Shown here piece after piece: positions 16,984-36,320 of a DNA stretch of 64,000 bases. Position numbers and translations under genes: made by a program. The stretch comes from Isoetes taiwanensis (lineage: Eukaryota > Streptophyta > Lycopodiopsida > Isoetales > Isoetaceae): positions 3,050,350 through 3,114,349 of the forward strand of contig JAJEKV010000108.1 of NCBI GenBank assembly GCA_021234155.1. Reading direction: 5' to 3'. Under the pieces are notes generated by a model that saw nothing but the letters and a program-made list of their open reading frames with translations, did no database searches and was not told the DNA's origin. Each line of letters opens with the position of its first letter. The first letter of the stretch is position 1.

Positions 16984-19287
16984 AGAAGGAAGGAAGGAAG
17001 GAAGTTTATTTTAACGCCCACGGAGGACGAGAGGCCTATGAGGCGGTACATGTAGAGAACACAAAAAAGCCAAAACCCCAACACCAAAAACAAACAATGT
17101 AATCATGCCAGTGGAACCCTACTAACGGATGAAAAAAACCCCCATTTGGGAGGAAAAACCCTAATAGTAGGCTCTCAAATACCATGCCCCAAGAGCAAGT
17201 CCGGACGCCCGAAATCAGAGGGGATGTAAGCTCCCGCTACCATAGGTGATGCGAGTAATCGATGTAGCGGTGTGTCGAGCATCTAAGATCGCCAGTGCAT
17301 TGCTTTCGGACATGGGCATATCTTTGCAATCACCGGAGGGCATGGTGCTCATCCTCTATCACGTGCATCTCACAACACACCTACATATCCTCTCCTCCCC
17401 GGGATCCCGTGCCCGCCATTCACCCCCTAGCGCCGACTGCTTCAATTGCGAGGTAATGGGAACCCATCCTTACGGCAGCAATAGCTCTCCTCGCTTTCTT
17501 CACAAAGATGTGTGCTTTCAAGTACCGGATGGGGTCCATGCTCAAGGCCGAGGATTAATGAAAGTGTGATAGTGCTCGCCTTTGGGCTTTGCAAAGAGTA
17601 GAGGCATCCCACGGGGTGGCAAAGATAGCCCGCGTCCAATTGCCCATTCTCGCTGCGATCGGACCGCGGTGCCACCATCCGTTGGTAATCCATAGACCAC
17701 CTCCTAAACCATCCCTTACAATTGCTTTCGTGCCATACCCTCTTCAAATACTGGGGCCTGCGTTAACAACACGGCCGGTGGGGGCAAGCTTGTTCATCCA
17801 TCCCATCCACCTTATGGAAGCAAGTAAGATGCCCCGCGCGATAGCGTATCGTCAGAAAAGGCGAACCCCCTCATACAACAAAATCCGATACTGCATTGTC
17901 CACTCCCAAGCTATATGTCAAGAAAGTTTTCTCGCACCCTTTCCAACCTATCCCACGTGTTTTCGCTTAACCGGGCCCCAAACCTCCACCCCATATAGCA
18001 GCAGAACCGCTTGACCAAAGCCCTAAATGTGTGTGCTCTCCTCGCCCAATCCACGGAGATCTATCCCAGCAACGCTGCGTTTTGCACCGTGCATATAAAG
18101 CCTTCCATTTGACCGGCTCTCCTCTCCACACACTCATCCCACGACATGTTAGTAGTGAAATCAATTCCCGTGATACTTGAAGCTCGCGACCATCTCCACT
18201 TCGTCCCTCGTAATATAACTCCGGATAGGGTGTTGCGAGGACATGATCATGAAGAAGCTTAGTTTTGTGCAAGTTCACCATCATTCCCGTTGCCCCGCGA
18301 ACCCACCCCATGAGGGCATCCAAATGTTCGCCAAGATACCGCTGGCGTGTGGGCTAGCAAAGCTACATCATCCGCGCATATGGTAACCGCTCCACAGAGG
18401 TCGCCTGATAATTGCACCCCTCGGGCTTCCCCATGGTGCCGTGATCCACGCCTCCAAGCTATCAATGTACAACCCAAAAGCGTTGGAGACAACGGGCAGC
18501 TCGCTTAACTCCCATAGTGCTAGCTACCCGCCGATCTTCATAAAGGCGGTCGCGGCATAAATCCCATCATAAAGCCGGGTGCACCCCGTTTCGCAACTCC
18601 TGTGGAACTCGCGAATTTTGCAACCTCCGCCACAATATGTCTCTCGGGGGTGATCATATGCAGCCTTTAAAATATACAAAGCGGCAATACAAGTCCTCGG
18701 CTTATTCCTTGCCTCCATCAACACTCTCAAAGTGAAGATATGGTCGGTCCGCGGGAGTGAGTTTTGAAGTAAAGCTTTTGCCGCCAATTGCCACTTCCAC
18801 CCTCCTCGGCCCACTTAGTGAGTTTCTTCTCCGCCACCCCCGCCCGGGGAGCTTTGCAAACAAATGGCTTACATTATAATCATCATTGGTAATTCGCTGC
18901 CGACCATCCGGTATTACCCGGCATGCCACCGGGAACAACCTTACTAACCATCCACTCGGGGAGCCCTCGCTCGAGCTGGTTAATGATCACCGCCGAGGGG
19001 GCCCTACCACAGATGGGCCACCCATTTCAATAGCTCGGCCTGCAGCCCCTGTAAATCCTTTGCCTTGCCATTCTCCGGATGCGAGACCTCGGGCTGACAT
19101 CCTCCCGCGTGAGTCGCAAACATCCTCTACCTGATCCGGGACCACGGCATTAGCTCACAGGGGATCATATAACTCCCGCCCGGTGCATCCATTGCTCCAC
19201 ACTTACATTACCGGCCACGGCGGGAGAACACCTTACGCCAAAAGCTTTTGGCTCGCCATGAGCATGTCAAACAAAGCCTCCCCGGTT
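16984..19287 (-). mobile_element. LINE A, 3' half (reverse transcriptase)
   Basis: Minus-strand LINE reverse transcriptase in several frames. Near 18,640-18,720 it has TDHIFTLRVLMEARNK followed by a stretch matching the palm (AALYILKAAYDH.PRET). The catalytic box reads CADDVALLAHT (about 18,345-18,380), with Cys in place of the usual Tyr. It is followed by MMVNLHKTKLL at about 18,260. The 3' terminus near 17,003-17,045 (plus: acgcccacggagg, gaggcctatgagg) matches the ends of the other LINEs, and a (GGAA)n tail lies at 16,984-17,002. The element is interrupted exactly at 19,288 by the CACTA-like element, and its 5' half continues at 32,263. Many indels make it non-functional. Confidence 0.82.
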
Positions 19288-19563
19288 CACAACAAGATAA
19301 TGGACATTTAGCGGCGTGGGCTTACGATGCCTGCGGCGACGCGGATCGCCGCGAAATAACGCCACCATGCGACGCCAATGCGACGCGTCGCGCTTCACCG
19401 CCGCCTGAGCGGCGTGTGATGCGACGTCGTCGATACCGACGTGGCGTGGCAGATCGTCGCGCCAGGTCGCACACGTCTACGACCCGCGTCGCATCGTATG
19501 TCACTTTTGTGCGACGCGTCGGCGTCGCGCGGCGCGGCGTCGCGCGGGACGCCTATTGACGCC
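19288..19563 (+). repeat. Left terminal inverted repeat and GCGACG-rich subterminal zone
   Basis: After the roughly 29-bp terminal repeat come about 250 bp at very high GC with tgcgacg/gcgacgc words in both orientations. In CACTA elements, clustered short subterminal motifs of this kind bind the element's own protein; the same role here is inferred. Confidence 0.7.
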
Positions 19564-19573
19564 TAGTGTACTT

Positions 19574-22500
19574 TTGTTCTTTTGGAGAACAAGGGTGGTC
19601 TTCGGCCACGAAAGTTGGTCCCCAGGGTAATGTCGATATTCGAGTCCATTGGAAGAGCCAAATCATGGTTTTGAGAGGGAATATTGCTCGCCCATTGCCG
19701 GGCCTTCGTGAAGAGAACTTTTGTGGCAAAGATGTGAGCTCTGAAGACTCGAGCTATTTCATCGTGCACCAACACCGCATATCCTAGTGAAATGTTTTTT
19801 GTCCGCGACCGCAAGACGTTGCACCGCTTGTCAAAATTCCACCTTTTTCGATGATGCGTAATTTTAGTTATGCGTTCTTTTGCATTCATGCTTCATAAAT
19901 TCGTAATTAATGCATGGTATGGAATTAAATTCTGATTTTTTTGTCGGGCTATTTCCTAGGTCATCCCAAAATATAGGCAAATTTTTTAGAATTTTCTGAT
20001 AAAGTTCTGATCAAATAGGTAGCATTGAACGGTCTAGGCGAAATGTTGTTGGGCAAGAAGAAGACATGCATAGTACGGAATTAAATTCTGATTTTTTGTC
20101 GGCAGGGCTTCCTAAGTCATCGCCAACGCATACATGCCAAAAATTTCCGCATAAGGTTTAGATCAAAGTGTTTGCATTAGTATGGTCCGGGGCCTGTTGT
20201 TGGGCGGTAGCCGCACACTTGCCCAAGTCAAACAAGGCCGGGACCTTGCAAGGTCAGCCTCATTAGAGGGAGAGTCCGAACCCCAAGAGGCGAGCCACAA
20301 AAGTTTCCCCGAGGCAGTTCCTTTCCTGGCAACTCCCGAGGGGCCGTGACGCTAAAAGACCACACTCCCGGATCTCGTTCCCCTATCCGGCCGCTGAATC
20401 CTTCGCTCAAGGGCCCCGGCTCGATAAGGTCCAAAAAATCCAACATCCGTCTGGGAGAACTTATCAAACCCGCCGCCCCCGCTGGCCGATCGTGGTAGAA
20501 ACCAAAGTGTTTTGTCGTTCGACATTGCGGGAGGCCCGAATGGCGATCGACTTCTCGCCACATCATCCGGAGGCTGAAATCACCCTAGAGACCAAGTTGC
20601 AATCGTCGGTTTGCAAAAGAAAGAAACACTTACGCCTACGTTGCGAAGATTCGACCCACCTCCTACATTAGGGTTTTTGAGATTAAAAAGGGCCTTCAAA
20701 ACATGCCAACTAAGCCAAATGAAGATAAATGAACTACCAATCGTAATCGGAGCTCGACGGGTCCAAAGAAACTGTTATAACTAACTCAGACTGGATCACA
20801 TTTTCTAGCATAACTATTGATAGAAAAGTCCAAATCAACTCCTTCGCTTAGTGCAATAGATAGATCTCGTTGAGATCTTTCCAATCTTAGGTGCTTTGCA
20901 TATATTTTAACCACTTATGATTGTCAAAACTCCAAAAAATATGGTTTTACCATTTTTTTACTATTCTTCTGGACTAAAAGATATGAAAAACCACCCAAGG
21001 TTAGAAAGATCTCAATGAGATCTATCTATTGCACCAAACAAGAGCTCATTTGGACTTTCCTATCAATACTTATGCTAGAAAATGTGATCCAAAGGAGTTA
21101 GTTATAATCGCTTTTGGCCGACCGGATTACCGCCTGCTTTTTTTGATTGGTAGTTCATATAGCTTAGTCAGCAATTCTTAGAAGGCCCTTTTATGATCTC
21201 AAAAAATCCCTAATGGGCCAATTGACTACGAGTGTGTTGGACATGAGATAGTTTGACGCTTCCTCGAGAAGGGTGGTCTTCCGCCACGAAACTTGGTCAC
21301 CGTGACAATGTCGACATTCCGGTCCATTGGCGAGCCAAATCACGATTCGGAGAGGGAAGTTGCCTGTCCGTCGCCCGGCCTTCTTATAGAGGACTTTTAG
21401 GGCAAGCCGCCTTCGTGTGGTTTTAGGGTCTGTTAACTCGCGTCAACACCACCCCTCTACGCCAAGACATCGCAAGGTCCTAGTCGACCGACAAGGATAG
21501 AGCCTCAAAACGTAAACCCTATGAGTTGCCGTTCTAGCGGGGTTTGCGTTTTGGGTGCCGAAGTTTGGTCTTTTGCACTTGGGACTTGGCCGATAAGATG
21601 CGATTGAGAACATGCGAAGCAAGGGAACCCGGCGAATGGAGTTTGGATCTCAGCATACTCCTCCCGTTGTGGCGGTTAGAAGTAAAGGCGCTTTGCAAAG
21701 AGCAAGACATTCATAAATTCATAATTAATGCATAGTAACGGAATTAAATTTTGATTTTTGTCGGCGAGGCTTCCTAAGTCATCGCCAACATACGTGCCGG
21801 TTTTCAAAATTTCGGACAAGGTTTAGATCAAAGTGTTTGCATTAGAACGGTCCGGCAGCTTTGTTGTTGGGCAACCAGCCGCACACTTGCCCAAGTCAAA
21901 CAAGGCCAGGACCTTGCAAGGCCACCTCATTAGAGGAGAGAGGACCCCAAGAGGCGAGCCCCAAAAAGTTTCCCGAGGCAGCCTTTCCTGGCAGCGCTCC
22001 CCCGGGGGCCGTACGCTAAAGACCACACTCCCGGATCTCGGTTCCCCTATCCGACCGTTGAATCCTTCGTTCAAGGGCCCTGTCTCGATAAGGTCCAAAA
22101 AAATCCAACATCCGTCCGGGAGAACTTATCAAACCGCGAAGCGTCCTGCGGTCGACCGTGTAGAAACCAAAGTGTTTTGTCGTTCAGACATTGCGGAGGC
22201 TCCGGAATGGCGATTCGACTTCGCCACATCGTCCGGGAGGCCGAAATTACCCTAGAGACCAAGTTGCACGGTCATTTTTGCAAAAGAAAGAAACACTTAC
22301 GCCCTACGTTGCAGTATTCGACAGCCACCTCCTAGGCCAATTGACTACGAGTGTGTTGGACATGAGATAGTTTGACGCTTCCTCGAGAAGGGGTGGTCTT
22401 CTGGCCATGAAACTTGGTCCCCAGGGCAATGTCGACGTTTCGAGTCCATTGGCAGAGCCGAATCATGATTCCGGAGAGGGGAAGTTGCCCGTCCGTCGCC

Positions 22501-25500
22501 AGGGCCTTCGGGAGAGGACTTTTGGGGCAAGCTGCTTCCGGATGGTTTTTAGGGTCCCTGCTCTGGTGTCAACACCCCCCTCTACGTCAAGACACGGCGC
22601 AAGGTCCTAGTCGAATCTGACAAGGATAGAGCCTCCGAAATGTAAACCCTATGAGTTGCCAGGTTCTAGCAGGGTTTGCGTTTTGGGTGCCGAGTTTTGG
22701 TCTTTTGCACTTGGGACTTGGCCGATAAGATGCAGTTGAGAACGCGAAGCAAGGGGCCCCGACGAATCGAGTTTGGATCCATACTCCTCCCGTTGTGGCG
22801 GTTAGAAGTAAAGGGCGCTTTTGCGCAGAGCAAGACATTCATAAATTCGTAATTAATGCATAGTACGGAATTAAATTCTGATTTTTTGTCGGCCAGGCTT
22901 CCTAAGTCATCGCCAACATACAGGCCAGTTTTCAAAATTCCGGACAAGGTTTAGATCAAAGTGTTTGCATTAGAACGGTCCCAAGGCTGTTGTTGGGCAG
23001 CCGGGCACACTTGCCCAAGTCAAACAAGGCCAGGACCTTGCAAGGCCGTCTCATTAGAGGGGAGAGTCTCAACCCCAAGAGGCGAGCCCCAAAAAGTTTC
23101 CCGGTAGCCTTTCTGGCGGCAGCGCCTCCCGGGGCGACGCTAAAGACCACACTCCCCGATCTCGGGTTCCCCTATCCGGAACGCTGAATCCTTCGCTCAA
23201 GGGCCCCGCCTCGATAAGGTCCAACAAAATCCAACATCCGTCCGAGAACTTATCAAATCGCTAAGCGTCCCGCGGTCGGCCGTGTAGAAACCAAAGTGTT
23301 TTGTCGTTCAGAACGTTGCGGAGGCTCCGAATGGCGATTCGACTCGCCACATCGTCCGGAGGCGAAATTACCCTAGAGACCAAGTTGTGCGGTCGGGCTT
23401 TGTAAAAGAAAGAAACACTTACGCCCTACGTTGCAAAGATTCGACGGCCACCTCCTAGGCCAATTGACTACGAGTGTGTTGGACATGAGATAGTTTGACG
23501 CTACCTCGAGAAGGGGTGGTCTTTTGGCCATGAAACTTGGTCCCCAGGGCAATGTCAATGTTCCGAGTCCATTGGCAGAGCCGAATCACGATTACGGAGA
23601 GGGGAAGTTGCCCGTCCGTCGCAAGGGCCTTCAAGGAGAACTTTTGGGGCAAGCCGCTTCCAGTGGTTTTAGGGTCCGTGCTCAAGGCCAACACCCCCCC
23701 CCTCTACGCCAAGACACGGGCGCAAGGTCCTAGTCGAATCCGACATGGATAGAGCCTCCGAAACGTAAACCCTATGAGTTGCCAGGTTCTAGCAGGGTTT
23801 GCGTTTTGGATGCCGAGTTTTGGTCCTTTGTACTTGGGACTTGGCCGATAAGATGCTGTTGAGAACGCAAAGCAAGGGGAACTGACGGAATGGAGTTTGG
23901 ATCTCAGACTCCTCCGTTGTGGCGCTTAGAAGTAAAGGGCGACTTTTGCAAAAGAGCAAGACATTCATAAATTCTTAATTAATGCATAGTACGGAATTAA
24001 ATTTTGATTTTTGTCGCCAGGCTTCCTAAGTCATCGCCAACATACGCCCAGTTTTCAAAATTTCTGGACAAGGTTTAGATCAAAGTGTTTGCATTAGAAC
24101 GGTCCGGCAGCCTGTTGTTGGGCCGAGCGAAGCAGGCACACTTGCCCAAGTCAAACAAGGCCAGGACCTTGCAAGGCCACCTCATTAGAGGGAGAGTCCG
24201 GACCCCAAGAGGCGAGCCCCAAAAGTTTCCTCGAGGCAGCCTTTCCGGCAAATCCCGGGGCCGTGACGCTAAAGACCACACTCCCGGATCTCGGTTCCCC
24301 TATCCCGACCGCTGAATCCTTCGCTCAAGGGCCCTGCCTCGATAAGGTCCAAAAATCCAACATCCGTCCGAGAACTTATCAAACCGCCTGGCGCCCCGCC
24401 ACGACCGTAGAAACCAAAGTGTTTTGTCGCTCGGACATTCGGAGGTTCCGGAATGGCGATTCGACTTCGCCACATCGTCCCGAGGCCGAAATTACCCTAG
24501 AGACCAAGTTGCAAGGTCATTTTGCAAAAGAAAGAAACACTTACGCCCTACGTTCGCGATTCGGCGCCCACCTCCTAGGCCCAATTGACTACTGAGTGTG
24601 TTGGACATGAGATAGTTTGACGCTTCCTAGAGAAGGGTGGTCTTCTCGCCATGAAACTTGGTCCTCGTGGCAATGTCGACGCTTTCTGAGTCCATTGGCG
24701 AGCGAATCATGATTCCCGGAGAGGGAAGTTGCCCGTCCGTCGCCGGGGCCTTCGGGAGAGGACTTTTGGGGCAAGCCGCTTCCTGATGGTTTTAGGGTCC
24801 CCGCCTCGTGTCAACACCCCCTACGCCAAGACACGCCAAGGTCCTAGTCGAATCGACAAGGATAGAGCCTCCGAAATGTAAACCCTATGAGTTGCCGTGT
24901 TCTAGCAGGGTTTTCGTTTTTGGGTGCCGAAGTTTTGGTCTTTTGCACTTGGGACTTGGCCGATAAGATGCACGATTGAGAACGCTGAAGCAAGGGGACC
25001 GACGGAATAGAGTTTGGATCTGTACTCCTCCCATTATGGCGCTTAGAAGTAAAGGGCGGCTTTTGCAAGTAGCAAGACATTCATAAATTCGTAATTAATG
25101 CATAGTACGGAATTAAATTCTGATTTTTTTGTCGTGAGGCTTCCTAAGTCATCGCCAACATACAGCCGTTTTCAAAATTTCCCGGACAAGGTTTAGATCA
25201 AAGTGTTTGCATTAGAACGGTCCGGGCAGCCTTTGTTGTTGGGGCAGCCGAGTCGGCACACTTGCCCAAGTCAAACAAGGCCGTGACCTTGCAAGGCCGC
25301 TCTCATTAGAGGGGAGAGTCCGAACTCCAAGAGGCGAGCCCCAAAAGTTTCAAAGGTAGCCTTTCTGGCGGCTCCCCCCGGCGTGACGCTAAAGACCACA
25401 CTCCCGGGATCTCGGTTCCCTATCCGACCGTTGAATCCTTCGTTCAAGGGCCCCCCGCCTCGATAAGGTCCAACAAAATCCAACATCCGTCCGGAGAACT

Positions 25501-28500
25501 TATCAAACCGCGCCCTGCGGTCGGCCAGGTGTAGAAACCAAAGTGTTTTGTCGTTCGGACATTAAGGAGGCTCCGGAATGGCGATTCGACTTCCACATCG
25601 TCCGGAGGCCGAAATTACCCTAGAGACCAAGTTGCAAGGTCATTTTTGCAAAAGAAAGAAACACTTACGCCCCACGTTGCGGTGATAAATGACCACCTCC
25701 TAGGCCAATTGACTACGAAGTGTGTTGGACATGAGATAGTTTGACGCTTCCTAGAGAAGGGTGGTCTTCCGCCATGAAACTTGGTCCTCGAGGGCAATGT
25801 CGACGCTTTTGAGTCCATTGGCAGAGCCGAATCATGATTCCCAGAGAGGGAAGTTGCCCGTCCGTCGCCGGGCCTTCGGGAGGACTTTTGGGGCAAGCGC
25901 TCCGGATGGTTTTTAGGGTCCCCTCGTGTCAACACCCCCTCTACGTCAAGACACGGCAAGGGTCCTAGTCGAATCGACAAGGATAGAGCCTCCTAAATGT
26001 AAACCCCTATGAGTTGCCGTGTTCTAGCGGGGTTTGGCGCTTTTGGGTGCCGAAGTTTTGGTCTTTTGCACTTGGGACTTGGCCGATAAGATGCGATTGA
26101 GAACGCCAAGCAAGGGGAACCCGACGGAATAGAGTTTGGATCTGTACTCCTCCGTTGTGGCGGTTAGAAGTAAAGGGCGCTTTTGCGGTAGCAAGACATT
26201 CATAAATTCGTAATTAATGCATAGTACGGAATTAAATTCTGATTTTTGTCCAGGCTTCCTAAGTCATCGCCAACATACGAGGCCGTTTTCAAAATTTCGG
26301 ACAAGGTTTAGATCAAAGTGTTTGCATTAGAACGGTCCGGGCAACCTGTTGTTGGGCAGCCGAGCTGGCACACTTGCCCAAGTCAAACAAGGCCAGGACC
26401 TTGCAAGGCCGTCTCATTAGAGGGGAGAGTCTGAACCCCAAGAGGCGAGCCCCAAAAGTTTCCCCGAGGTAGCCTTTCTGGCAGCTCCCAAAAAAGACGC
26501 TAAAGACCACACTCCCGGATCTCGGTTCCCCTATCCGACCGTTGAATCCTTCGCTCAAGGGCCCCGCTCGATAAGGGTCCAACAAAATCCAACATCCGTC
26601 CGAGAACTTATCAAACCGCGAAGCGTCTGCGGTCGACCGTGTAGAAACCAAAGTGTTTTGTCGTTCGGACATTGCGGAGGCTCCGGAATGGCGATTCGAC
26701 TTCGCCACATCGTCCGGGGGACCGAAATTACCCTAGAGACCAAGTTGTACGCGGTCGGTTTTGTAAAAGAAAGAAACACTTACACGCCCTACGCTGCGAA
26801 GATTCGGCGGCCACCTCCTAGGCCAATTGACTACGAAAGTGTGTTGGACATGAGATAGTTTGACGCTACCTCGAGAAGGGGTGGTCTTTTTTGCCATGAA
26901 ACTTGGTCCCTGTGGCAATGTCAATGTTCCGAGTCCATTGGCGAGCCGGAATCAATGATTCGAGGAGGGGGAAGTTGCCCGTCCGTCCGCAAGGGGCCTT
27001 CAAGGAGAACTTTTGGGGCAAGCCGCTTCTGGTGGTTTTTAGGGTCCGTGCTCGGCGCCAACACCCCCCTCTACGCCAAGACGGCAAGGTCCTAGTCGAA
27101 TCGACAAGGATAGAGCCTCAAACGTAAACCCTATGAGTTGCCGTGTTCTAGCGGGTTTTTGCGTTTTTGATGCCGAAGTTTTGGTCCTTTGTACTTGGGA
27201 CTTGGCCGATAAGATGTTTGTTGAGAACGCAAAAGCAAGGGGAACCGGACGGAATGGAGTTTGGATCTGTACTCCTCCCGCTTGTGGCGCTTAGAAGTAA
27301 AGGGCGCTTTTGCAAGAGTAAGACATTCATAAATTCGTAATTAATGCATAGTACGGAATTAAATTCTGATTTTTGTCAGCAGGCTTCCTAAGTCATCGCC
27401 AACATACGTGCCAGTTTTTTCAAAATTTCCGGGACAAGGTTTAGATCAAAGTGTTTGCATTAGAACGGTCCCGCAGCCTGTTGTTGGGCAGCCGAAATGG
27501 CACACTTGCCCAAGTCAAACAAGGCCAGGACCTTGCAAGGCCGCCTCATTAGAGGGGAGAGTCCGAACCCCAAGAGGCGAGCCCCAAAAAGTTTCCCCGA
27601 GGCGACCTTTCTCGGTAGCTCCCGGGTCGCTAAAGACCACACTCCCTCTCGGTTCCCCTATCCGGACCGCTGAATCCTTCGTTCAAGGGCCCCCGCCTCG
27701 ATAAGGTCCAAAAAATCCAACATCCGTCCGGGAGAACTTATCAAACCGCTGAAGCGCCCCGCGGTCGGCCAGTGTAGAAACCAAAGTGTTTTGTCGTCGG
27801 ACATTGCGAGGTTCCGAATGGCGATTTGACTTCGCCACATCATCCGAGGGAGGCGAAATTACCCTAGAGACCAAGTTTCCGCGGTCGGTTTTGCAAAAAG
27901 AAAGAAACACTTACGCCCTACGTTGCGATTCGATATAGCCACGCCCTAGGCCAATTGAGTACGAAAGTGTGTTGGACATGAGATAGTTTGACGCTTCCTC
28001 GAGAAGGGGTGGTCTTCGGCCACGCGAAACTTGGTCACCGTGGACAATGTCGACATTCCGAGTCCATTGGCGAGCGAATCACGATTCCCGAGAGGGAAGT
28101 TGCCCGTCCGTCGCCAGGCCTTCGGGAGAGGACTTTTGGGGCAAGCCGCTTCCGTGTGGTTTTAGGGTCCGTGCTCAAGGGCGTCAACACCACCCCTCTA
28201 CGCCAAGACACGGCGCAAGGTCCTAGTCGACCGACAAGGGTAGAGCCTCCAAACGTAAACCCTATGAGTTGCCGTGTTCTAGCGGGTTTGCATTTTGGGT
28301 GCCGAAGTTTTGGTCTTTTGCACTTGGGACTTGGCCGATAAGATGCGCTTGAGAACGCTGGCAAGGGGAACCGACGGAATGGAGTTTGGATCTGCACTCC
28401 TCCCGTTGTGGCGCTTAGAATTAAAGGGCGTTTTGCAAGTAGCAAGACATTCATAAATTGTAATTAATGCATAGTACGGAATTAAATTCTGATTTTTTGT

Positions 28501-30005
28501 GTCACAGGCTTCCTAAGTCATCGCCAACATAACATACAGCCCGTTTTCAAAATTTCCTGGACAAGGTTTAGATCAAAGTGTTTGCATTAGAACGGTCCCG
28601 GGCTGACTGTTGTTGGGCACCGAGCCGCACACTTGCCCAAGTCAAACAAGGCCCGACCTTGCAAGGCCACCTCATTAGAGGGGAGAGTCCGGACCCCAAG
28701 AGGCGAGCCCCAAAAGTTTCCCCGAGGCGACCTTTCCCCGGCAGCTCCCGGGGCCGTGCGCTAAAGACCACACTCCCGGGATCTCGGTTCCCCTATCCGG
28801 CCGTTGAATCCTTCGTTCAAGGGCCCCGCCTCGATAAGGTCCAAAAAAATCCAACATCCGTCCGGAGAACTTATCAAACCGCTGGCGCCCCCGGGTCGGC
28901 CGTAGAAACCAAAGTGTTTTGTCGTTCGGACATTGCGGAGGCTCCGGAATGGCGATTCGACTTCGCCACATCGTCCGGGAGGCCGAAATTACCCTAGAGA
29001 CCAAGTTGCACGGTCATTTTGCAAAGAAAGAAACACTTACGCCCTACGCTTCAAAGATTCGGCCCACCCACCTCCTAGGCCAATTGACTACGAAAGTGTG
29101 TTGGACATGAGATAGTTTGACGCTTCCTAGAGAAGGGGTGGTCTTCGGCCATGAAACTTGGTCCCTCGTGGCAATGTCGACGTTTTGAGTCCATTGGCAG
29201 AGCCGAATCATGATTCCGGAGAGGGGAAGTTGCCCGTCCGTCGCCAGGGCCTTCGGAAGAGGACTTTTGGGGCAAGCTGCTTCCGGATGGTTTTTAGGGT
29301 CCCTGCTCTGGTGTCAACACCCCCTCTATGTCAAGACACGCGGTAGGTCCTAGTCGACCGACAAGGATAGAGCCTCCAAATGTAAACCCTATGAGTTGCC
29401 GGGTTCTAGCGGTGGTTTGCGTTTTGGGTGCCGAAGTTTTGGTCTTTTACACTTGGGACTTGGCCGATAAGATGCGCTTGAGAACGCTGGCAAGGGGAAC
29501 CCGACGGAATAGAGTTTGATCTGTACTCCTCCGTTGTGGCGGTTAGAAGTAAAGGGCGCTTTTGCGTAAGAAGACATTCATAAATTCGTAATTAATGCAT
29601 AGTACGGAATTAAATTCTGATTTTTTGTCAGCAGGCTTCCTAAGTCATCGCCAACATACAGGCCAGTTTTCAAAATTTCCGGACAAGGTTTAGATCAAAG
29701 TGTTTGCATTAGAACAAATCCGGGCAGCTGTTGTTGGGCAGCCGAAATGGCACACTTGCCCAAGTCAAACAAGGCCAGGACCTTGCAAGGCCGCCTCATT
29801 AGAGGGGAGAGTCTGAACCCCAAGAGGCGAGCCCCAAAAAGTTTCCCGGTAGCCTTTCTCGGCGGCTCCCACGGGGCCGTCGCGCCAAAGACCACACTCC
29901 CGGATCTCGGTTCCCCTATCCGACCATTGAATCCTTTCGCTCAAGGGCCCTCGCTCGATAAGGGCCAAAAAAATCCAACATCCGTCCGGAGAACTTATCA
30001 AACCG
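19574..30005. repeat. Tandem satellite array, unit about 1.12 kb, roughly 8.8 units
   Basis: The phase marker gacatgagatagtttgacgc occurs at 21,240, 22,359, 23,482, 24,604, 25,728, 26,847, 27,975 and 29,104, giving spacings of 1,119-1,129 bp. An edge unit starts near 19,574. It lacks the marker, is the most divergent and has a local internal duplication (19,892-20,063 and 20,066-20,215). The final unit stops about 900 bp in, near 30,005. Each unit alternates AT-rich blocks (ttaatgcatagtacggaatt) with GC-rich blocks. Short frames recur between units but are repeatedly frameshifted, so I do not call genes. Central copies are closely alike, suggesting homogenisation by unequal exchange. Confidence 0.9.
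20666..21215. mobile_element. Foldback (MITE-like) element in the first satellite unit
   Basis: A 550-bp segment has long imperfect inverted arms of about 230-250 bp. It begins CATTAGGGTTTTTGAGAT and ends ATCTCAAAAAATCCCTAATG. Inner landmarks include gatagatctcgttgagatct on the left and agatctcaatgagatctatc on the right. Other units read cctcctaggccaattg without it, so the insertion site is defined and the unit returns to about 1.12 kb once it is removed. No clear target duplication is visible. No coding capacity. Confidence 0.75.
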
Positions 30006-30486
30006 CCACCCCGTGCTCAAACATGCCACCCCGTGCTCAAACATTCGTAAGTAGTAGCAATAGAAGATTGGTTAAATCCGAATGCGATTTTGATCGCATA
30101 TATGGCTCGGGGAATGTCCAAATTAGCATAAGGACAAACTTTCATGACCATCGATGAAAAAAGGCACCAAAAAATAAAAAAAAGTGTTAGACGTCGCTAT
30201 AACAAAATATCGTCATGGACCGTGCCGTCGTCACGACGTTAAAACAGATATATCGATTTTGAAATCGTATATCACGATTTCAAATTACGCCGCATGCGAC
30301 GCCCGTGGTTTTTTTACAACCCGCTGGCCGCCTTTTCCGGGACCATTCCTAGGCTTCCTTCTATCGACTATTTTGGGCGATCTTCTACGCTTACGACCTT
30401 GAATGACTTGCAAGCACTCTTTTTTAAGGTTAGTAGATCATGGTTTTGGATTGAATGGTTTTTTGGATTGAATGATTTAGTGTAGA
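30006..30486. other. CACTA-like element interior after the array
   Basis: A short duplication (ccaccccgtgctcaaacat, twice at 30,008-30,045) is followed by a patch at 30,185-30,305. That patch reuses subterminal words (tagacgtcgctata, gcatgcgacgcc) and small palindromes (gatttcaaatt, cgattttgaaatcg). It may be an internal remnant of another element end. Confidence 0.45.
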
Positions 30487-30800
30487 TTTCAAATTTTTTT
30501 TTTCTATTTCTTTTTCTTCTTCTTGTTTCTTCATTCTTCTTCTTTTTCCTTCTTTCCTCATTTCTTTCTTCGATTCTTCCCTTATTTCACTCTTCCATTC
30601 TTCCATTCTTCTATCTTCTTCCATTTCATTCTATTATTTCTTCCATTCTTCTCTTTCTTCCCCCTAATTTCTTTTTTTTCTCCTCTTTCCCCTTCTCTTC
30701 TTTCTCCCACCCTTCTCTTCTTCTTTGATTCATTCATTTTTTTTTTCTTTCTTGTTTTACTATTTCTTCATCTTTTTTTTTTTTTTTTTTTTTTTTTTTG
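30487..30800. repeat. Polypyrimidine (TTC/T-rich) low-complexity tract
   Basis: Almost pure C/T with runs of T, including one of about 30. Frames reading as Phe/Ser strings are compositional artefacts. Confidence 0.85.
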
Positions 30801-30967
30801 TTTCTTCTTCGATCTTTTTTTCCGTTGTTCTTATTCTTCTAACTCTTTGGTGCTTTCTATTTCGATTTGGACCCATCAGGATCTTGTTACACACGTCCTT
30901 CTTTTGGTAAGTTGATCGCGCTTGCATTTTATTTTTATAATTTTAAGCAGGTTAAAAAAAATTGATG

Positions 30968-31249
30968 GAGTGGCTTGTTCAAGGGCACGGGCCTGGCTCC
31001 ACCTAGAGTGGGGGGACCATGTACCCTGGTTCAAGTCCACTTCACTACGATCATATATTTTTCCTAGGTTAAGGAGTGGCTTGTTCAAGGGCACGCGGCC
31101 CCACCTAGAGTGGAGAGGGCCACGTGCAGGGTTCAAGTCCACGACCACTTGTTATTTTTTGGTTTAAAATAAAATTGTAGTGGCTTGTTCAAGGGCATGG
31201 TAGGCTCCACTACGAGTGGAGACGACCAGGTGTTCGGGTCCAAGTCGAC
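30968..31249 (+). repeat. Three tRNA-like SINE heads in tandem
   Basis: Three related units of about 70 bp start gtggcttgttcaagggca (30,968, 31,074, 31,178) and end in a pol III B-box-like ggttcaagtcc (31,028 and 31,130; ggtccaagtcg at 31,237). The start resembles a tRNA A box. This is the organisation of tRNA-derived SINE promoters. The units are separated by AT-rich spacers of about 30 bp. They do not fold as full tRNAs by eye, so I do not call tRNA genes. Confidence 0.5.
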
Positions 31250-32018
31250 TTTTCTTGTAATTCTTAGGTAGAGATGGCCAAATCTAGCTTATAACCCTAA
31301 AGCGTATGTTAGCCAACTCTAGCTTTTAATCCGACTAATCCAGTTTTGGAAGGGGCTCATTTCGATGATGGGGAGTCGCTTGAAAAAAGAAGGTACATGA
31401 CCTAGTCATAGTCTTATTTTTATTCTTTTGTTTTGTGTTAATCTATCAATTTATAGAAAAGGCAAAGAGTGGTTGCAAAATTGAAGTCGAATGCCAAAAA
31501 TTGGGAGGCGATTGGTCAAAGGTCCCTAAACCACTTAATCATCCATAAGGAAGATATCAAGGTATTTGTTATTTGTTGCCATTCGCTCAATTCAAATAAG
31601 ACATTTAACTTGTCATGTTGTATTCCTTGCAATCGATCACTTTCAATTATGCGTCTGCAAAAGGATTCCAAGAAAAACATCCGCCTTCGAAATGAGACAT
31701 TTAACGCCAAGGCAACTTCAAGCAAAACGAATTCGGCCTCACTTGGGTTCTTAAAGTCAAAAGGCTTTTACATAGATTCGTAAGTGCTATAAACTCTTAG
31801 TTCACGTTAACTTTCAATGTCATTGTCTAATATTGGTCGTATTGTCTAATATTGGTCGTCAATGTCATTGTCTAATATTGGTCTGTTAGGGTTTTCCCCT
31901 AACAGGGAACACGTAAAGATAGCCACTACTCGCCTCTTGCCTCTTGTATATGATATTGTAACTAACTATTAAAATTCTTTCCTTTTTTTTTAATTTTTTT
32001 TTTTAATTTTTTTTTTAA
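31250..32018. other. CACTA-like element interior, no recognised gene
   Basis: Contains a short triple repeat of attgtctaatattggtc (31,822, 31,840, 31,867) and T-rich homopolymers at 31,980-32,025. A 104-codon plus frame (31,469-31,783) matches nothing I know. The position next to the right end is where a transposase exon could lie, but no DDE-type motif is visible. Confidence 0.45.
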
Positions 32019-32262
32019 TTTTTTTCAGACACCACGCGTCGCCGCAGCGACGTCCGTCTATCACATGCGACGCCGGAAGGCGACGCCCGAAGTCCGCGCC
32101 CGAGTCACGCGTCATAGCGGCGCCCGAAAGGATGCCGCCGACGCGTCGATGCGACGACGCGTCGATGCGACGATTCCAGAACGACGACGTGCGGCGACGG
32201 CCAAGTCCGACATCGCATAGACGTCGCTATAGACGTCGCTAAATGACCCTTTTCTTGTTGTG
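32019..32262 (-). repeat. Right subterminal zone and terminal inverted repeat
   Basis: Dense gcgacg, gacgtcgctat and cgcgtcgatgcgacgac words lead into a terminal repeat that mirrors the left end (cttgttgtg at 32,254-32,262). The motif density and length, about 240 bp, parallel the left side. Confidence 0.7.
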
Positions 32263-34735
32263 GTTTCTGCCATGTATCTCCCCTTCTTGGCTTTTAGGAA
32301 GAGCTTATAGTCTTGAAGGGCCTGTGGTCGCAACTATGGATCTATGACTGCCGCAAATGGTGACTCTTTAGAGCCTTGCAATCGCATCAAACCACGGGTT
32401 CTCGTGAAAATGCGCGGTGGTCCCTCCTTGTAGGGCCCTTCACCGCAAAGGAAGCCCCGGCGAATGCAAGGGCCTCACCAGCCCATGCACACCGCCTTGC
32501 GGTGGTGTAGAAGCTATCAAACCCCTCGTAACTCCCCGCACCAACACCGATTCATACCGCCCCTCGCCGATAGGCGTGGGATGTATGGTAACCCTCCATG
32601 CCCCTTTGCGGTGTCTCCACTATTGAGTGCTCCCAATTCAACGTGACATAAAGCGGGTAGTGATCCGACAAAGCCTCCTCATCCCCCGCGTGCTTGTGCC
32701 AATGGAGAAGTGTGTAACCATGTCAAGTCTTTCTGGGGAGCGAGATGGTAATCTAACACACTAGCTTCGCCCATCCCGCCTATCACTCACCGCAAGTAAC
32801 ACCCCGAGTGTGGCCATCGCCGCATACCATTACAAATTACCATGTCAAAAACTCGGCGGTTTGGACCATTTGCCGCCAAATGGTTTAGCCACCATATCTG
32901 GGAGTGTCGTGGTTCTGCCGAATAGCGGGCCGTCTCAAGCCAAAGCGGATCGACATTAGCGCCACCTTGGAAGGTCACCGACCGCGCTGCATCGTCACGA
33001 GCATTGAAATCTCCTAGCAAAACACACGCCCCCTGGCCGTCTATAGCGGTCTATGTCATCATACGCTTCCTATACGGCATCACGGACATCCGTAATTCGT
33101 CATGTACTGGTAGAACTTAGAGCACGCATGGGAAATGTAGCGACTAGCAAGAAACAATGGGACATGACCAGGGCTCTAATACCATTACCCACATGTAGCG
33201 GTTAAATGCATCGGACTTACGAAGTGTGATCTTGCATGCTAAAGCGTCCCTAAAGTAGCAAAGCCACTCCACCGTATTCGCCACGCCATGGCGCTCATTA
33301 GCAAGTGAGAAATGCCGATATCCTCGAATGGATGGCGGTCGATGCCCTTCATACTCCCATGTCTCCCCGCAGGAAGACGATGTCCATGTACTGTCGCGAT
33401 CCCATTCAAGCCCGCTTCCTTTACGCCGAAGCCCCTACAATTCCGAAACAATGCGAAGACACTTTCCCTATGCCGACCGCGCCGTGGGACCCATCTCGAG
33501 TGCCCGAGGGGGCCGTTGTGGTTGGAATAACTTCGGGCAGCCTGCTCACGAGACCCCGATGGATGTGCCGCGGTTGTGGAAGGCCTCAATCCGCCCTCTC
33601 CCCCGGCACCCGCTGGCCTGATGCCCCCGGGCGCTCGCCCCCTCGCGCCCGCAATTGTTCGTGGGAGTCTTTGCCTCAACTAGCTGTCGACGAGGGAGGC
33701 ACATAAACCTTCATCTTGCCATTAACCAAACCAGCAGCCCCTCCGCAGCCGAATCTCTCTTATCTTGACCAACTCTTGGCTTCTTTCCCGTTGTTGCGGT
33801 GGCGTGAGATCCGGATCGGTGTATATGGGCGTACCTTTCAAGCGGCGAGGTGCAACAACAAAGATTTTGCCTCCCAATCCAAGACTGCAAACTTAACTAG
33901 CCGAGGTCTAATGCTCGGTCCTCCAACCCCTCGATTGGACTCTTGATAACCAAATACTGTAATTGGAGCTTTGCAAGTACCAGAATGGTAAGCTTACCTG
34001 GCAAATCCTCGCCTTGCTCCTCCCAAGCAATCCCCGCACAATAAGGTTGAGGCGGCATGTCCGGATGTCTTGCTCCTCACGGCGGTAGTACCGATGATTC
34101 CCGAGCCACCTCGGCCTCGGTATGGGTGGTCTTTGTGCGGGCGACCGTGGTGCACTCCGACTCGTTGCACCTCCATTCGAGGTCCCGCATCTCTTCTTTG
34201 TAAGTGGGCCATATGGTTCTCTATATGTGAGCATCTTCCCCGACATCTCCTGCTGTCATGCGCCTTTGCTTCATCAAGGAATTGGAGCCCGTCCCCGCAC
34301 CGCTTCCACATCCTTTTCCTTAGCATCTATCCGACCAGCCATGCTTGTGACTTGTACAATCTGGCCGCGGCAACCCCTTCATGTCGGCCCGTTAACGCGC
34401 CATGTCTTCCATCCATCAAGGTGGACCTTATCCAAGCGGTGCCCCATCTCCGTGACTAGTCAGCGTTGTTGCTTGTATCTCCCCTCTTATCGGTCATTAG
34501 CCTTTTGGGCTCCCCGCAATCATAATCCCCGGGCGAACTTCCACAAGGGAAATTCGCTCCTTCGCTGGAGAAAGCCGCTTCTTCTTGCGCAGCCCCCGGG
34601 CGGATGGTCCCTGATGCCTCAAAGCTTGCCGGCTTAGCTCGAGGGAACCGGCCTGTTCTGTACAACCCCGATTGCCTCACCGTGATACCTGCCTCACGAT
34701 GGGGACGAGGTATCCAAATTAAGGGGTTCTTTTCT
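32263..34735 (-). mobile_element. LINE A, 5' half (ORF1-like region and endonuclease)
   Basis: On the minus strand the apurinic-type endonuclease is recognisable. NCRGFGVKEAGLNGIATVHG (about 33,400-33,450) is a degraded N-terminal part. MLGDFNARD at 32,995-33,020 is the conserved GD.NAR box, and DMVICNGMRRWPHSG follows at 32,800-32,860. The region 33,700-34,735 upstream is an Arg-, Gly- and Cys-rich ORF1-like stretch with no confident domain. Frames are broken many times. The order of endonuclease here and reverse transcriptase at 16,984-19,287 is as expected for one LINE of about 4.8 kb once the CACTA-like insertion is removed. Confidence 0.75.
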
Positions 34736-35419
34736 TCAACGCATGCATGCTGTCAGGGGTTGCCATAGAGGGCCGGGACTATCAGGTGGATTCCGTCGAC
34801 TAAAACGGAGGAAACACCATACAAATCATACACCGATGGAAAGCTCGTTCGATAAGCTTTCCAACGAGAACATACATTGCAACAATGATTTTATTGTAGT
34901 AAAATATGTGCTTTCACACCGAACCATCCCGCTTATTCAATATAAATGCACATAATGCGCAAGATGCCACCTAAATCTTCCACCCACATTCCACACATAC
35001 ATAAAACAATTTATACATGCCCAACATCCATCTCATCCCGCTCCTCCTTCCATCAACCGATTCTATCAACTATTGCAACTAATCATTCCATGCGTCGATT
35101 AATGCTCGGCATCGCCGGGCACACGTTTCTAGTATAATGTACAAAAGTTATGTCTACACTAACATGTATCCTCGGAAAAGAACATTGGCGCAGTAGCAAT
35201 TGCCCTACTAGGTTAACATCTTCCCATGGGCATTTTCCTTTTTTCTCTTTCGGTGTTGATCCTCTCGCTCTAATTTGTCTTCAATTATCTCTCTTTAGTC
35301 CTATGCATGTGCATGCATGGCACTATAAGAAGGGCTACACTATTGCGTCACAAAATATTTTCCTTTTCCTAATTACAAAGTGAACCCTTTTTGTTATCAA
35401 TTTAGCATCTCGTCATGAG
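34736..35419. other. No recognisable gene
   Basis: AT-rich flank upstream of LINE A. No feature supported. Confidence 0.5.
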
Positions 35420-35760
35420 TTGAAAAAATGTGGCCTAGCAGCTAGGCTTTATGTGAGAAGGAAAATTGCCCAACCAAAAAACGGCAGGCCTCCAGTGCAT
35501 TTTAGAAGCCTCCGGATGGACGGCTTCAAATACAATAAGGACAATAATTTGAAGACAATCTCCCAAAAAAGTTTGGAGAGCTTCATAGTTATCGTGCTAT
35601 TGCAAAATGGAAGAGAGATAGAATTGGGGAGTCATGTTTTAGAAGTTGGGGAAGTAGCATAAGCTTATAATGATGATCTTGTTCATGATGAATCATATCA
35701 AGATTCAGCTTTACGTGAGTATTTAAAAACTATAAAGGGGGTTGGAAAGAAGAGGAAGTT
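35420..35760 (+). pseudogene. Decayed coding end of an unrecognised family
   Basis: An 80-codon frame (35,420-35,662: CGLAARLYVRRKIAQPKNGR near its start) ends at TAA. Past the stop the same register stays open as AYNDDLVHDESYQDSALREY to a basic stretch and a stop after YMDD at about 35,783. The second half corresponds to the start of the repeat also present at position 1, where it is frameshifted. Composition is protein-like, but I recognise no domain. It could be the end of a transposon ORF or a duplicated host gene. Confidence 0.4.
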
Positions 35761-36320
35761 CAGGAGACGGTACATGGATGATTGATGCATGCATACCATT
35801 ATCTCTAGGATACTCTTTTGTTGTACGACCTAGATGTGGTGCTAAGAATTATGGAGGTGCAGAATATGATGCAATATTCTAATACCTGCTTCTACATGAA
35901 GCTTAATTTATTATCTGAAGATTTAGTTGAAAGCGTGCTACAGTGTATCACTTTTGGGACCCTAATATTAGGTACTTTTGAAACTAGTACTTTCTATTTT
36001 TTTTTTCCATCAAAATCATTAGAAACAATCTAAAATAAAAGTCATTTTATTAGTAGTAACATGATAACTATACTATTAGAGGCTAAAATGAATGAATCAA
36101 TTTTTAAACTTATTATTTATCATGATATTTATGCAAGTTGTCAATACCGAGTGAGGGGTACTTTTTGGACACTTTTTTTGTTGCAAAAATACCTTAAATG
36201 GGACATCGTAGTGCTCTTATCCATTTTTCTTATGATTGCTACATAAATACAATATATGTTTCACGATCGAAGCCATGTGCACTAATTCTATTCTAGTTCA
36301 GTATCATACCACTACTATAA
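35713..36320 (+). repeat. Dispersed repeat, copy 2
   Basis: Collinear with 1-637 in the same orientation, with scattered substitutions and small indels. Similarity fades after ttctagttcagtatcatacc. Copy 2 extends left into the decayed frame at 35,420-35,760, which is missing from copy 1 only because the window starts there. Confidence 0.8.

Follow-up and report, generated by a model that had tools for sequence, protein, structure and literature searches.

A non-autonomous CACTA-like element with CACAA termini and a seemingly native tandem array in the genome of Isoetes taiwanensis

How satellite arrays get to new loci is an old question, and it is raised again by a stretch of 64,000 nucleotides from Isoetes taiwanensis (contig JAJEKV010000108.1, positions 3,050,350 to 3,114,349), referred to here as the window. 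A sequence-only reading of the window had described a CACTA-like transposon that packages a satellite as cargo and lies inserted in a LINE. Satellite-like arrays inside transposons are already known from published accounts of Chenopodium CACTA elements and oyster Helentrons, and the point at issue is whether the array of this locus is a passenger or belongs to the element that carries it.

The ends of the element were borne out on re-examination of the window. It is complete, CACTA-like and spans 19288-32262, with inverted ends (CACAACAAGATAATGGACATTTAGCGGCG against the reverse-complemented CACAACAAGAAAAGGGTCATTTAGCGACG) that are identical at 25 of 29 positions. The left terminal inverted repeat, CACAACAAGA..., occupies 19288..19316 on the plus strand, and all 40 scored genome matches start at its first base. 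It opens a left subterminal zone rich in GCGACG/CGTCGC (19288..19560, plus strand), delimited by the motif positions, and across this zone the other 39 scored matches show 74-81% identity; the right subterminal zone (32013..32262, plus strand) includes the right terminal inverted repeat at 32234-32262. Each terminal 320 bp is dense in the motif, with 10 occurrences on the left and 9 on the right, against 11 in the intervening 12.3 kb. GTT flanks the element on both sides (19285..19287 and 32263..32265) as the two copies of a target site duplication.

The interior is, as had been claimed, mostly a tandem array of a unit of about 1.12 kb, and repeat units account for 72% of the element. The array (20085..30007, plus strand) holds about 8.3 units of approximately 1.13 kb, seven of them full units of about 1128 bp (pairwise identity 87-93%) accompanied by partial ones, and exits at unit phase ~388. 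A diverged, rearranged first unit (19570..20085, plus strand) links it to the left end; on the family left consensus, this unit matches unit positions 611-789 (79%) and 1079-1263 (83%). The sole break in the array is a 549-bp insertion inside one unit (20666..21214), with inverted ends and MITE-like by eye, for which no match was listed in 20 other family copies. To the right of the array (30008..32012, plus strand), a GCGACG island, a pyrimidine-rich stretch and a triple GGCTTGTTCAAGGGCACGG-type repeat form an interior that is 82-92% identical in family copies. No RNA family of Rfam was found at gathering thresholds in window positions 17000-36000. The element itself lacks a transposase and is thus non-autonomous: a Pfam search of seven consensus frames, drawn from its left part, repeat unit and right part, yielded just two matches, both below threshold (E 0.11 and 0.2) and neither to a transposase. 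A coding role of the unit was rejected, since four candidate frames showed no consistent excess of substitutions at third positions; in one frame of 92 amino acids, the substitution rate even declines across codon positions (0.053, 0.040, 0.028), and 4 of 65 units retain an intact longest consensus frame (at least 190 amino acids). The unit also has imperfect inverted repeats at 460-736 and 854-983, with a fold below that of mononucleotide shuffles. Permuting the partners leaves pairing across 65 units at least as good: the first region scores 0.921, against a mean of 0.923 for permuted partners, with 23 double changes against 24.8, and the second 0.949 against 0.949, with 0 against 2.4. These values give no support for a functional hairpin.

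The element belongs to a family with a terminus of its own. Exact ends in the 1.66-Gb genome of the plant amount to 605 of the CACAA type and 4 of the CACTA type (0 in a reversed-pattern control), so that CACAA is the terminus of the family and the variant suspected from the window is real. Instead of the conserved CACTA start of CACTA/EnSpm elements, the inverted repeats thus begin with CACAA, and the element is therefore named CACTA-like; its assignment to the superfamily is supported by 3-bp duplications, a clustered subterminal motif and TNP2-bearing relatives. Transposon searches demanding CACTA or CACTG ends would overlook such a lineage. Among 40 left-end and 40 right-end matches, other loci with both ends were found as 14 correctly ordered pairs, 5.3-17.9 kb apart, together with one reversed pair 38.7 kb apart, and separately inserted copies of the family probably number in the hundreds. 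The array was present in all 20 further copies read. It exits at phase 390 in 14 of the 16 copies whose array end fell in the sequence stretch read and at 334-346 in the other two. Eleven complete copies, of 4.6-13 kb, differ mainly in unit number (1.39-8.27 units), in line with the expected copy-number differences; their non-repeat part measures 2937-3084 bp in seven of them and deviates in four (the window element, L016, L027 and L028). The 3-bp duplication is exact in nine of the eleven, that is, in eight of the ten besides the window, and inexact in L011 (CTA/TAA) and L016 (GGT/GAT). No 3-bp duplication is expected of Helentrons. In these eleven copies, the left 320 bp contain GCGACG/CGTCGC 6-17 times and the right 320 bp 6-14 times. 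Repeat units of one copy resemble one another more closely than they resemble those of other copies.

The anticipated TNP2 relatives were found in part. Two loci with Transposase_21 (TNP2) have the left end of the element, 79% and 84% identical over about 240 bp (at L030, Transposase_21 has an E value of 1.8e-62 and DUF4218 one of 2.6e-21), and at both of them repeat units follow downstream of TNP2, with 84.6% identity at C723 and 85-89% at C908. The ends are shared on the left side; a right end turned up at neither locus within the 20 kb and 33 kb covered, and the two are thus at most putative complete elements. The triple GGCTTGTTCAAGGGCACGG-type repeat also occurs upstream of TNP2 in the relatives, 63-65% identical. 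Very probably, then, the locus is a non-autonomous deletion derivative of a CACTA (En/Spm) lineage with CACAA termini and a native tandem array. Larger relatives would run from the left end through the TNP2 transposase gene to the array of ~1.13-kb units, and an internal deletion would have taken out the gene and brought the left end up to the array, probably between GCGACG-type motifs of the left subterminal zone and of the island just before the array. The diverged left join contains a stretch, at about 436-587 of the left consensus, without a listed match in the TNP2 relatives, and the event was accordingly not a simple two-point deletion. The resulting form, with end, array, right interior of about 2 kb and end, would have lost TNP2 and kept the array. 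It may be mobilised in trans by a CACTA transposase whose targets would be the terminal repeats and the GCGACG motif, moving by cut-and-paste with 3-bp duplications, and its unit number would shift between copies through unequal exchange or replication slippage. Every jump would in this manner deliver a short satellite-like array. The dSpm-type derivatives of En/Spm also arise by internal deletion and keep both ends; the Isoetes derivatives keep in addition a long tandem array and can thus equal ordinary elements in length.

Transposition of the array to new loci, as the sequence-only reading had supposed, is upheld by the many copies and by one paralogous empty site. When the flanks of copy L017 are joined with a single ATA, they align over 302 bp with sequence next to L012 (96.7% identity, one 2-base gap away from the junction), whereas joins with both ATA or none score lower and need 3 more gap bases. 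The matching flank of L017 and L012 is a repeat that holds the empty site. For the window insertion, the joined flanks gave no match among the other loci compared. That the copies arose instead by segmental or tandem duplication is highly improbable. At both TNP2 loci another left end does follow in tandem, after 24.0 and 31.9 kb, and the one at C908 repeats the same outer flank; however, the exact duplications of the eight complete copies differ in sequence, and the joined flanks of the eleven complete copies yielded only two matches among the loci compared, L017-L012 and L027-L025 (73 bp, 71%). Even less credence, practically none, is due to a coincidental association in which unrelated CACTA ends were inserted in or around a genomic satellite. 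Nested insertions are common here and several copies are interrupted (L012, L020, L023 and L026), but two array borders stay constant in most judgeable copies despite different flanking DNA and separate 3-bp duplications, and the paralogous empty site lacks the array; constant borders and empty site speak strongly against coincidence.

A single capture of a free genomic satellite by a CACTA element, with spread from there, is unlikely, though less so than these two readings. It has a published precedent in Chenopodium quinoa, where satellite DNA is described inside CACTA elements (PMC8978399). Two observations also speak for it: the unit, for which a derivation from TNP2 was rejected, resembles nothing in the relatives' TNP2 half at the sensitivity used, and at C529 the array start adjoins 1.6 kb matching no part of the element. 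On the other hand, a search with the repeat unit scored 11 of its 6125 first-look candidates, and each of these loci shows some sign of element context, with the diverged left unit listed in 9 of 11 and a stop at phase 385-389 in 9 of 11; C914 is identical with copy L026, which has a left end. An element end is also correctly placed at 15 of the 32 array clusters among the first 100 entries of a unit-word scan. Of five clusters viewed among the other 17, three have element sequence beside the array, one runs off its contig and one runs past the stretch read. Classical satellite DNA forms long free arrays that are typically heterochromatic; no free array of the unit appeared among the arrays examined, namely the 11 scored loci and the clusters described, including these 5 of the other 17. 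With the same borders in most judgeable copies, the array behind TNP2 at both loci and no free array in this limited sample, the array looks native, and its description as packaged cargo is not supported. Since the array was kept at transposase loss, its borders were kept and units of one copy resemble each other more than those of different copies, it might even be a maintained working part of the lineage and not a passenger, serving for instance as a long spacer or to bait host factors of silencing or repair; this is a tentative idea and on balance improbable. Were it right, the family would be a mobile, length-variable satellite sowing potential satellite seeds genome-wide.

The seemingly native array of the Isoetes lineage can be set beside several described systems. 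The C. quinoa element is Jozin-like, with a 171-bp satellite array of 32.5 copies that was read as captured, and in C. sosnowskyi a related satellite is reported without connection to CACTA (PMC8978399). Common to both plants are elements of the CACTA superfamily with a Transposase_21/DUF4218 coding part, a 3' tandem array and several carrier elements per genome; by contrast, the C. quinoa account gives CACTA termini, a 171-bp monomer and an array in transposase-bearing elements (PMC8978399), while the Isoetes family has CACAA termini, a unit of ~1.13 kb and many transposase-less derivatives whose body is mainly array. Cg_HINE Helentrons of the Pacific oyster are likewise described as non-autonomous DNA transposons with a satellite-like central array, dispersed genome-wide (PMC7492417), but they belong to the Helentron superfamily, occur in an animal and do not have CACTA-type ends. 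Tetris of Drosophila virilis also supplies satellite building blocks; unlike the Isoetes element, it is presented as a foldback element whose satellite comes from its terminal inverted repeats (PMC4079207, PMC9659126). The satellite CficCl-61-40 is similarly linked to a CACTA lineage through Jozin tnp2 fragments, its start monomer being given as a transposase-gene fragment of ~40 bp (PMC7320549), whereas the Isoetes unit has no TNP2 match at the sensitivity used. In the literature, no paper combining CACTA, CACAA and terminal inverted repeats was found, nor an array of ~1.1 kb inside a CACTA family; the latter is weak evidence of absence, as the search covered titles and abstract starts, with most subscription journals outside its coverage. 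Separately inserted copies from one source, each datable by its own sequence, make the growth, shrinkage and homogenisation of arrays after insertion measurable.

As for the host of the insertion, an open LINE frame across the join had been put forward. About 40 open codons are present there, but they carry no weight as evidence, because chance alone would leave a stretch of about this length open across any chosen point and all six frames of the joined flanks hold 51-78 stops. A six-frame search with the entire flanks hit no LINE family and gave a single match, to an unrelated family (E 0.089); three other flank pieces gave nothing against Pfam, and a genome search with the reverse-transcriptase family (150 of 46109 candidates scored) gave nothing on the host. 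The proposed insertion in a LINE keeps two faint traces, both on the minus strand: an RT-like motif remnant, PLSPTL...CADD, at 18262..18504, seen by eye without a Pfam match, and an endonuclease-like remnant at 32790..33050 (Exo_endo_phos, E 0.0052, 17 bits against a curated cut-off of 24.5). On these weak indications, the host is plausibly a decayed LINE that the element split between endonuclease and RT.

The complete CACTA-like element that the sequence-only reading had placed at 19288-32262 is present, with inverted ends, GTT flanks, motif-rich ends and array all seen. Its inverted-repeat ends start with CACAACAAGA and are identical at 25 of 29 bases, GTT lies on each side, and GCGACG/CGTCGC occurs 10 and 9 times in the outer 320 bp of the two ends and 11 times elsewhere. 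Comparison of the element with itself gives chief repeat spacings of ~1110-1133 bp, and the array (20085-30007) is built from seven full units plus several incomplete copies, with a single 549-bp interruption, repeat units accounting for 9391 of the 12975 bp. The 549-bp insertion (20666-21214) sits within one repeat unit and is MITE-like, with inverted ends CATTAGGG...CCCTAATG recognized by eye; no clear target duplication was seen around it. Regarding the host site, which had been read as a LINE, the element splits a weak endonuclease-like remnant from an RT-like motif (by eye), both on the minus strand and in the order expected for LINE ORF2. No LINE family model reached threshold on the insertion flanks, so a LINE host is no more than weakly indicated.

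The search of the 1.66-Gb genome for other loci with both ends was successful. The left 273 bp of the window element gave 447 first-look candidates, of which 40 were scored, all aligning from base 1, and the right 250 bp gave 478, of which 40 were also scored. These ends combine into 14 correctly ordered and oriented left-right pairs with spacings of 5.3-17.9 kb, plus a single reversed pair with a spacing of 38.7 kb. Genome-wide there are 605 matches to a 29-base end pattern with CACAA and none to its reversed-pattern control. Among 100 of these matches listed, adjacent ones less than 40 kb apart are convergent in 12 cases, divergent in one and tandem in six. Since the CACTA version of the pattern, broader at two other positions, occurs only four times genome-wide, CACAA is the settled terminus of the family and not a mutation of a single copy. 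The sole convergent pair among the four CACTA-ended matches (contig C1051:8062285-8072149, 9.9 kb apart) may connect the family with ordinary CACTA elements.

The content of other copies was read from 20 of the other 39 left-end matches, each fetched with 9.7 kb of interior. In all 20 the repeat unit follows a diverged left unit, partly missing in copy L028. Leaving out L022, L023, L025 and L026, the array ends inside the fetched stretch in 16 copies and exits at unit phase 390 in 14 of them, the exceptions being L019 (phase 346) and L027 (phase 334). The right end was reached in 10 of the 20, giving with the window copy 11 complete elements of 4579-12975 bp; the copy-number differences looked for between them range from 1.39 to 8.27 units (repeat share 35-72%). 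Without repeats, seven of the 11 measure 2937-3084 bp; among the others, the window copy carries its 549-bp insertion, L016 has a right-interior piece inside its array, L027 is without 887 bp of right interior, and no cause was found for L028. End-pair coordinates alone suggest longer elements, up to 22.8 kb, and one 35.7-kb pair may hold nested DNA.

Exact 3-bp duplications flank nine of the 11 complete copies, the window copy included, where matching flanks would be expected by chance in about 1 in 64; the matched flanks anticipated at other copies thus held except at L011 (CTA/TAA) and L016 (GGT/GAT). One empty site was found, for L017: its joined flanks, with a single ATA retained, align at 96.7% identity to 302 bp adjacent to copy L012. 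The alignment is ungapped across the junction, its only gap being one of 2 bases elsewhere. Joining with both ATA or none introduces three more gap bases (486 and 481 versus 501 bits). Because this flank, which contains short internal repeats, occurs at both loci, the empty site is paralogous, not allelic. The L012 locus also contains, at L012:2138-4703, long arrays with a ~19-bp unit (GGCTCAAACATGCC-like); they are similar to the short repeat with which the right interior begins, but run opposite to L012's element.

Whether the repeat also exists as a free satellite was approached from the unit itself. One unit as query gave 6125 candidates, and all 11 loci scored show some element context: the diverged left unit is listed at nine, the array ends at phase 385-389 in nine, and five also have a family end in the end searches; one of the 11, on contig C914, is copy L026. 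A 24-base word found in 57 of 65 units compared has 962 genomic occurrences, against none for its reversed-pattern control, which would correspond to at least ~1100 units, or ~1.2 Mb. By eye, the 100 occurrences listed first fall into 32 clusters, of which 15 have a correctly placed element end. Five of the remaining 17 were looked at: element sequence adjoins the array on contigs C99, C411 and C529, the array reaches the contig edge on C565, and it extends beyond the fetched stretch on C282. On C529, 14 listed unit words spread over 15.7 kb, and the array is bordered on its left by sequence that does not belong to the element. This limited sample, 11 scored loci and 20 of the 32 listed clusters, revealed no free array.

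A genome search with Transposase_21 reported 167 matches; among those listed, at least three, at two loci (C723:346707 and C908:23262757), lie by eye less than 10 kb inside a family left end in the right orientation. Over ~240 bp, the left ends of these TNP2 loci show 79% and 84% identity to the family consensus. The 20 bp that flank them on the outside are different, and most of the TNP2 part is 91-94% identical between the two loci. The C908 locus has matches to Transposase_21 (E 1.8e-62), DUF4218 (E 2.6e-21) and, below threshold, a transposase-associated domain, and stops interrupt its transposase frame. Behind the coding part follow 0.65 kb of family repeat (84.6%) at C723 and 6.3 kb (85-89%) at C908. 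Of the autonomous TNP2 relative that was to be looked for, a transposase region and a left end are present, but no family right end was found in the 20 kb read at C723 and the 33 kb read at C908 (L030 with L032-L034, C908:23262500-23295499), so both are only candidates for complete elements. Two kb past the first C908 array, a second one (L033:4754-8402) has units only 76-79% like the family unit, which indicates divergent sublineages of the repeat. Both loci have another family-type left end in tandem, 31.9 kb on at C908, where the outer 45 bp shown are also repeated, and 24.0 kb on at C723 (L029), where 1.8 kb of the TNP2 region is present twice, at 96.6% identity. A triple ~110-bp repeat (GGCTTGTTCAAGGGCACGG...GGTTCAAGTCC) at ~30970-31280, in the right interior of the window element, recurs upstream of TNP2 at both loci (L029:963-1274 and, at C908, L030:4729-5039) and contains a tRNA B-box-like sequence (by eye).

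Classical defective En/Spm elements arise by internal deletion, and the array elements may have formed in the same way. Their left consensus matches the C723 left end to base 244 and, from base 241, the stretch directly before the C723 array, and the motif CGTCGCATGCGACGT is found at both places. This fits an internal deletion between the motif copies, which would have removed the transposase gene and joined the left end to the array. Bases ~436-587 of the consensus, in mid-join, have no match listed in the TNP2 relatives, and therefore more than one event was involved.

The principle is already known, since published work describes arrays inside CACTA elements of Chenopodium quinoa, read as captured satellites (PMC8978399), and non-autonomous oyster Helentrons with central satellite-like arrays (PMC7492417). 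As far as the literature searches go, the CACAA lineage with its ~1.13-kb unit, the presence of this repeat behind TNP2 in relatives and a large deletion-derivative family made mostly of array are new. Neither a coding signal in the unit nor covariation in its inverted repeats was detected. Units diverge by 9.2% within copies (107 pairs) and 10.7% between them (1973 pairs), a difference that beats all 2000 label permutations, so there has been some homogenisation within copies or copies have inherited different unit sets; adjacent units are no more similar than non-adjacent ones. Units lie 2-11% from their consensus, with CpG positions changed twice as much as others, and this divergence, combined with plant substitution rates, roughly points to insertions some millions of years old.
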